Of a stretch of DNA of 39,559 nt, positions 26,662 to 27,650 are shown in pieces. Below the pieces are notes generated by a model. The model was not told the origin of the DNA, did no database searches, and saw only the letters and a list, made by a program, of their open reading frames with translations. Position numbers and translations under genes: made by a program. Source of the stretch: Nitrososphaerota archaeon (GTDB lineage Archaea > Thermoproteota > Nitrososphaeria > Nitrososphaerales > Nitrosopumilaceae); the NCBI GenBank assembly GCA_005877305.1, contig VBPW01000069.1, positions 1-39,559 of the forward strand, in the 5' to 3' direction. Each line of letters starts with the position of its first letter. The stretch's first letter is position 1.

Positions 26662-26754
26662 CGGGCTCGGAGGGCTTCGATCCCTCGACCTGTAACTTAG
26701 GAGGCTACCGCGCTATCCATGTTGCGCGTCAATAAGACTCTGCGCCACGAGCCC
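26662..26754 (-). tRNA. tRNA-Arg (anticodon CCU) with predicted 18-nt D-loop intron
   Basis: Acceptor GGGCTCG/CGAGCCC, D stem GCGC/GCGC, anticodon stem GTAGC/GTTAC with loop CTCCTAA, T stem GAGGG/CCCTC, discriminator G; D-loop 28 nt becomes 10 nt after removing 26722-26739. Confidence 0.88.
26722..26739 (-). other. Predicted noncanonical archaeal tRNA intron AGTCTTATTGACGCGCAA
   Basis: Bulge-helix-bulge by hand: 5' bulge AG^A, 4-bp helix GCGC/GCGC, 3' bulge AA^C; spliced product restores a regular 75-nt tRNA. Confidence 0.75.
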
Positions 26755-26779: not shown

Positions 26780-27490
26780 TTAAGCGTAATCAAGATTTGA
26801 GACTATCATCTGTCTGATTTGATTCCAAGTTGGATCATCTGCGTTGTTCCATTTCTCATAAAATACAACATCTTTCAAATCAAGTCGTGGAAGCCAACCA
26901 GCTGTTTCTAGATCTGGTTTTTCTGCAAACTTTGAAACATGACCAAGACACAAGTATGCAATAGGAACAATATGTTCTGGTATTTCAAGAATTTTTTTCA
27001 GATCATCATTTGAAAGTATGCTAACCCAACCAAGTCCGATTCCCTCTGTTCTTGCTGCAAGCCAAAGATTTTGTATTGCACAACAGACACTGTAAATTCC
27101 TGTTTCAGGTATACTTGATCTTCCTATAACAAAGGGACCAAATTTTGTAGGGTCATATGTTACACATACGTTTACTGCCGAAGCCAAAATTCCTTCTAAC
27201 CTTAAGGAAAGATATTTTGATCTCTTTGGATCCTCGATAAGAGTTGCAGAACGTTTTCTTTCATTATCAAAAGATTCTTTTACTTTACTTCTAGTCTCAA
27301 TGTCTTTTATTAGAATAAAGTTCCATGGTTGAGAAAAACCAACAGAGGGTGCATGATGTGCAGCATTTAGAATTCTAGACAAAGTTTTGTCATCAATTGG
27401 TTCTGGTGTAAAATGAGATCTCACATCACGCCTTGAAAAAACTGCTTTGTAAAAACCATTTTTTTCTTCTTGGGAAAAATCTCCATTCAT
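26780..27490 (-). CDS. bluB: 5,6-dimethylbenzimidazole synthase
   Basis: 236 aa nitroreductase fold; RRDVRSHF, HHAPSVGFSQPWNFILI, GRSSIPETGIYSVCCAIQNLWLAARTEGIGLGWVSI. Confidence 0.9.
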   Translation of the reverse strand: MNGDFSQEEKNGFYKAVFSRRDVRSHFTPEPIDDKTLSRILNAAHHAPSVGFSQPWNFILIKDIETRSKVKESFDNERKRSATLIEDPKRSKYLSLRLEGILASAVNVCVTYDPTKFGPFVIGRSSIPETGIYSVCCAIQNLWLAARTEGIGLGWVSILSNDDLKKILEIPEHIVPIAYLCLGHVSKFAEKPDLETAGWLPRLDLKDVVFYEKWNNADDPTWNQIRQMIVSNLDYA

Positions 27491-27576: not shown

Positions 27577-27650
27577 GGGCCGATCGTCTAGTTGGTTAGG
27601 ATACCGCCCTGACACGGCGGTGGTCGAGAGTTCAAATCTCTCTCGGCCCA
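27577..27650 (+). tRNA. tRNA-Val (anticodon GAC)
   Basis: GGGCCGA...TCGGCCC acceptor, anticodon arm CCGCC CTGACAC GGCGG, T arm GAGAG TTCAAAT CTCTC, discriminator A. Confidence 0.96.

Follow-up and report, generated by a model that had tools for sequence, protein, structure and literature searches.

The tRNA-Arg(CCU) locus

The window, by which we mean the whole 39,559-nt stretch of DNA analysed here, carries on its minus strand a tRNA-Arg(CCU) gene with an insert in the D-loop and, upstream of it, a BluB-like gene (Table 1). Read 5' to 3', the tRNA gene is GGGCTCG TG GCGC AG / AGTCTTATTGACGCGCAA / CATGGATA GCGC G GTAGC CTCCTAA GTTAC AGGTC GAGGG ATCGAAG CCCTC CGAGCCC G; on re-reading, its coordinates and sequence were as given in a preliminary description of this DNA. 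The anticodon CCT is the one assigned by ARAGORN in orthologues that lack the insert. The acceptor, anticodon and T arms are standard and the D-loop is 28 nt long. The two predicted exons are contiguous and in order, so this is not a split or permuted tRNA gene.

Table 1 Features of the tRNA-Arg(CCU) locus (positions in the window)
Feature	Position	Strand	Remarks
tRNA-Arg(CCU) gene	26662..26754	-	93 nt with intron; predicted mature tRNA 75 nt including discriminator G73; from sequence and conservation
Exon 1 (predicted)	26740..26754	-	tRNA positions 1-15, ending ...GCGCAG; boundary set by intron-less alleles
Intron (predicted), 18 nt, AGTCTTATTGACGCGCAA	26722..26739	-	D-loop, between positions 15/16; exactly absent in orthologues
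Exon 2 (predicted)	26662..26721	-	tRNA positions 16-73, beginning CATGGATAGCGC
GCGC, D-stem 5' strand (positions 10-13) of the mature tRNA; central-helix strand in the bulge-helix-bulge form	26742..26745	-	
5' bulge AG^A	26739..26741	-	Predicted cut after second base
Inner-helix 5' strand GTC	26736..26738	-	Pairs with GAC; covaries
Inner-helix 3' strand GAC	26728..26730	-	
Intron-borne central-helix strand GCGC	26724..26727	-	In relatives GCG nearly invariant, fourth base A, C, T or G
3' bulge AA^C	26721..26723	-	
BluB-like gene (5,6-dimethylbenzimidazole synthase-like)	26780..27490	-	Name from reading of the translation; syntenic marker for the intron-loss tree

ARAGORN missed this gene, its sole call in the window being tRNA-Val(GAC) at 27577-27650, and it also missed the gene in the other intron-containing loci tried. 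The Rfam tRNA model gave a truncated match at threshold (29.0 bits, model positions 10-63), with the GCGC of the insert standing in for the D-stem 5' strand; this is a direct indication that the insert carries a copy of that strand. Intron-less orthologues matched RF00005 over its full length at 55.2-58.9 bits and were called as tRNA-Arg(cct) by ARAGORN. Once the insert is taken out of the window gene, the remaining 75 nt fold as the cloverleaf of a standard tRNA.

Boundaries of the insert in related genomes

To locate the ends of the insert, we compared the gene with its counterparts in the family to which the window belongs (f1), a lineage of ammonia-oxidising-type archaea. Among 63 distinct family sequences that were parsed, cutting at AG^N ... 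A[AG]^[CT] leaves exons of 75 nt and an insert of 16-22 nt; in a few lineages (L093-L095) the D-loop beside the 3' site is slightly altered. The junction predicted for the window, GCGCAG|CATGGATAGCGC, is present in natural intron-less orthologues, namely L092/L166 (genome G019) and, in a sister family, L132 (G201). Other intron-less orthologues have GCGCAG|TATGG or GCGCAG|CTTGG. The cleanest pair consists of L228 (genome G071) and L302 (Marine Group I strain G13), which have highly similar flanks and identical exons and differ at the gene by a single 17-nt gap, exactly at AG^A ... AA^T. The comparison strongly supports AG^A...AA^C as the splice sites, the very cuts and junction that the preliminary description had predicted for the window. 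That description had also called for a comparison of syntenic genes, which revealed relatives with constant exons and a variable insert, and orthologues that lack exactly the insert.

A side observation concerns L227 (G052), which shares its tRNA and intron with G071 and has upstream DNA quite different from that of L228/L229; this suggests a rearrangement breakpoint just upstream of the tRNA in G052.

Conservation across the family

BLAST with the 93-nt query found a match in 196 of 201 family genomes, some of these matches being intron-less copies or other tRNAs. A pattern search, in which a spacer of 12-30 nt was required between GCGCAG and GGAYARCGYRGY, picked up the intron form in 203 of 252 genomes of the family, spread over 21 of 22 genera; the listed matches include some chance ones, few in number. 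Given these two results, the D-loop insert that had been noticed from the window sequence is not a chance feature. Named records with the intron or the empty site include Nitrosopumilus, Nitrosotalea, Nitrosarchaeum, Cenarchaeum and Nitrosopelagicus. The intron-less pattern misleads when used alone, since an intron ending in GCGCAG looks like the exon, which is so in G001, G010, G013, G047, G106, G195, G198, G200 and G303; the listed hits that became loci were therefore read individually.

A relaxed bulge-helix-bulge motif

In the window the precursor can form two 3-nt bulges around a 4-bp helix (AG^A / GCGC-GCGC / AA^C), flanked on the intron side by the inner helix GTC/GAC. The inner helix was paired in 229 of 231 cells (77 distinct intron sequences), against a mean of 214.7 and a maximum of 219 in 1000 shuffles, a count that ignores kinship and is inflated by related sequences. 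Its types are GTC/GAC, GCC/GGC, GTT/AAC and ATC/GAT, with the compensatory types recurring in several genera, and the sole misfit is a lineage with an altered exon. The hairpin loop differs in length among relatives.

Three pairs of the central helix, those with D-stem bases 11-13, hardly vary among the 77 distinct relatives; opposite G10 stands A in 40 of them, C in 26, T in 6 and G in 5. The 4-bp GCGC/GCGC helix of the preliminary description is thus correct for the window but does not extend to most of its relatives: the outermost pair is G.A in 40 of 77, a relaxed form of the motif. The outer exon-exon helix of the strict motif is not conserved in the family, and we therefore assign the motif to the relaxed type.

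In the window, the computed energy of the bulge-helix-bulge form is 3.7 kcal/mol better than that of the unspliced cloverleaf, and in three other sequences the advantage is 6 to 11 kcal/mol; the window precursor has its global energy minimum in a third fold. The same GCGC strand serves in the bulge-helix-bulge form and in the mature D-arm, and the two are mutually exclusive, as expected from the competing fold that had been proposed for the unspliced RNA. A54 in the T-loop, singled out in the preliminary description as a deviation, also occurs in the Thr(CGT), Thr(GGT) and Met(CAT) tRNAs of the same genome; it is ordinary there, and we rejected a special role for it.

Splicing machinery

The genome of the window encodes, on contig C55, an EndA alpha subunit (E = 1.6e-31 to PF01974), with the catalytic Tyr, His and Lys in the motifs KFGCDFAVY, IDHAP and TVRKQ. 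Its best relatives of solved structure are mostly archaeal splicing endonucleases, of the short two-subunit type. The lysine in its GITKP motif aligns with residue 44 of 3p1z_B, as counted from the alignment; we take 3p1z to be the A. pernix enzyme and the aligned residue to be the lysine of the crenarchaea-specific loop. This loop has a role in broad specificity (PMC6379350). The sister genomes G005 and G027 encode another EndA-like protein (full reading in G005), which lacks the catalytic His and fits a beta subunit; a clear beta subunit was not found in the window's own genome, which is 87% complete. Reviews place an (alpha-beta)2 EndA in Thaumarchaeota (PMC4090602, PMC3218864). An RtcB ligase is present as well. 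The parts of a broad-specificity endonuclease and a ligase are thus encoded in the host group.

Interpretation of the insert

We interpret the insert, which lies at position 15/16 of tRNA-Arg(CCU), as a noncanonical archaeal tRNA intron, and give this reading a probability of about 0.96. In the precursor, the D-stem 5' strand GCGC would pair with the copy near the intron 3' end and GTC/GAC would close a small hairpin, leaving two 3-nt bulges (AGA and AAC) around a helix of 3-4 bp. A heterotetrameric EndA would cut after the second base of each bulge, RtcB would join the exons, and the D-stem 5' strand would then re-pair with its normal 3' partner to give the 75-nt tRNA. Gene anatomy, boundaries, covariation and the enzymes' genes are observed here; cleavage by EndA and joining by RtcB in the cell are inferred. 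The exact boundaries in intron-less alleles and the covarying hairpin support the intron reading of the preliminary description.

The intact acceptor, anticodon and T arms would also suit a tRNA that keeps the insert and functions with an enlarged 28-nt D-loop. This we consider very improbable: a normal D-loop with A14, G15, G18G19 and A21 appears only after removal of the insert, the bulge-helix-bulge geometry is conserved, the covarying hairpin has no evident role in an enlarged loop, and several losses fall exactly at the predicted splice boundaries. Even less credible is a silent or decaying copy, with tRNA-Arg(CCU) supplied by another gene. Room for such a gene is left by an assembly that is 87% complete, and Arg(UCU) could read AGG through wobble, yet AGG is in use (34 of 8,235 codons in 24 window ORFs), the exons barely vary within the family, and each single-contig genome examined has just one Arg(CCU) copy. 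In our survey of the genome's tRNAs by family and pattern searches, the window gene was the only tRNA-Arg(CCU) detected; the second intact gene that, according to the preliminary description, would with a silent window copy have refuted its reading was not found in the 87%-complete assembly, nor was an intron-less copy.

Losses and origin of the intron

Genera g6, g15 and g19, and a single g11 genome, lack the intron. For a tree of its loss we used the BluB-like neighbour, which tblastn located upstream of the tRNA at 198 of 228 loci. On the tree of this protein, four changes of intron label are required, and well-supported branches force three of these; G13-type and g6 loci, where the neighbour was not found, lie outside this count and add about two. 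Exact losses within the family thus number roughly five or six. In several genomes without the BluB-like neighbour upstream (L169, L181-L183, L165), a nearby AACCAACTAGACCATCGGCCC resembles the start of an opposite-strand tRNA-Val.

As a route of loss in L228/L302, we considered simple slippage between GCGCA repeats, which predicts GCGCAATATGG, whereas GCGCAGTATGG is observed. Slippage alone does not account for this pair unless the ancestral intron ended in AG.

Three other families, f8 (for example, L211-L215), f10 (L200-L204) and f12 (L192), carry an intron at the same site, with the AG^A bulge and the central-helix geometry and a different body. It follows that the intron either predates the family or was gained repeatedly at one site. 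That f1, f8, f10 and f12 acquired it independently at a hot spot, in place of one ancient intron, has in our view a little less than an even chance. Intron bodies are unalike between families, and f2, f14, f15, f17 and one f10 genome have no intron there, as would be expected of separate gains; against these, the site and the 5' bulge AG^A are identical and the central helix is shared, down to its G.A variant. Moreover, because repeated loss is demonstrated inside f1, losses in the other families are plausible. A more elaborate account would make the intron an ancient order-wide feature, kept because its site after G15 (the archaeosine site) and its D-stem copy couple D-arm folding or G15 modification to splicing, with the spliced tRNA copied back into the gene where the intron was lost; this we regard as unlikely.

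Other tRNA introns

Introns in further tRNA genes were met along the way. In the same genome, tRNA-Val(CAC) (L011 1501-1593; C49:19492-19584, minus strand) seems to bear a variable-region intron of ~19-20 nt (ATGGATTTAAAATCCCGCAAGGGTC), and ARAGORN places introns in or near the anticodon arm of tRNA-Lys(CTT), Ile(GAT), Tyr(GTA) and Met(CAT) (L013, L018, L028 and L030). The tRNA-Arg(CCU) of G202 (family f3; L153/L216) has an insert elsewhere in the D-arm, about 21/22 near AGCAGGTCTCCAGAA, plus one at 37/38. Outgroup tRNA-Arg(CCU) genes have introns at or near 37/38 in f10 (L201-L204), f12 (L192), f14 (L199) and f17 (L145); L200 (f10) has an insert in the variable/T region (CTGTAGAGAGCACGCTCGCAGAAGCCG) instead of the 37/38 intron.

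Relation to known introns

The insert belongs to a well-described kind, the short noncanonical tRNA intron. That archaea have D-loop introns within relaxed bulge-helix-bulge motifs is established (PMC6379350), and tRNAscan-SE 2.0, with a dedicated model, reports 107 noncanonical introns in Thaumarchaeota (PMC8450103). Like other such introns from Thermoproteales, Thaumarchaeota and further groups (PMC8450103, PMC4090602, PMC6379350, PMC3218864), it is short, lies outside 37/38 in a relaxed motif and has its predicted cuts within each bulge; its host group has an (alpha-beta)2 EndA, and D-loop positions are on record. There is no difference in kind, and what is specific here is the position at 15/16 of tRNA-Arg(CCU), the length of 16-22 nt in the family, the order-wide recurrence at one site and the repeated exact losses.

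The bulge-helix-bulge intron of the cbf5 pre-mRNA in Desulfurococcales belongs to the same splicing class and was present in an ancestor; at least two lineages have lost it, and a copy of the spliced RNA was proposed to have taken its place there (PMC2738675). It differs in interrupting a protein-coding gene, whereas here the gene is a tRNA, the losses are more numerous and a near-identical pair of loci exists with and without the intron. The intron-rich tRNA genes of Caldiarchaeum subterraneum have introns in the D-arm as well as at 37/38 (PMC3293823); the window gene, in contrast, has one intron, and it is outgroup families f10 and f12 that carry a second near 37/38 in tRNA-Arg(CCU). Our literature search found no paper naming this intron, and GtRNAdb very likely already lists an orthologue in a cultivated species.

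What we add is comparative evidence for exact boundaries, recurrence at one site across the order and repeated precise losses, together with the corrections on the fourth pair and A54. The intron is the reason that an ordinary tRNA finder overlooks tRNA-Arg(CCU) in this archaeal family. Loci that match naturally, some with the intron and some without it, offer a clean system for asking how short tRNA introns vanish with single-base precision, and whether they have any function.
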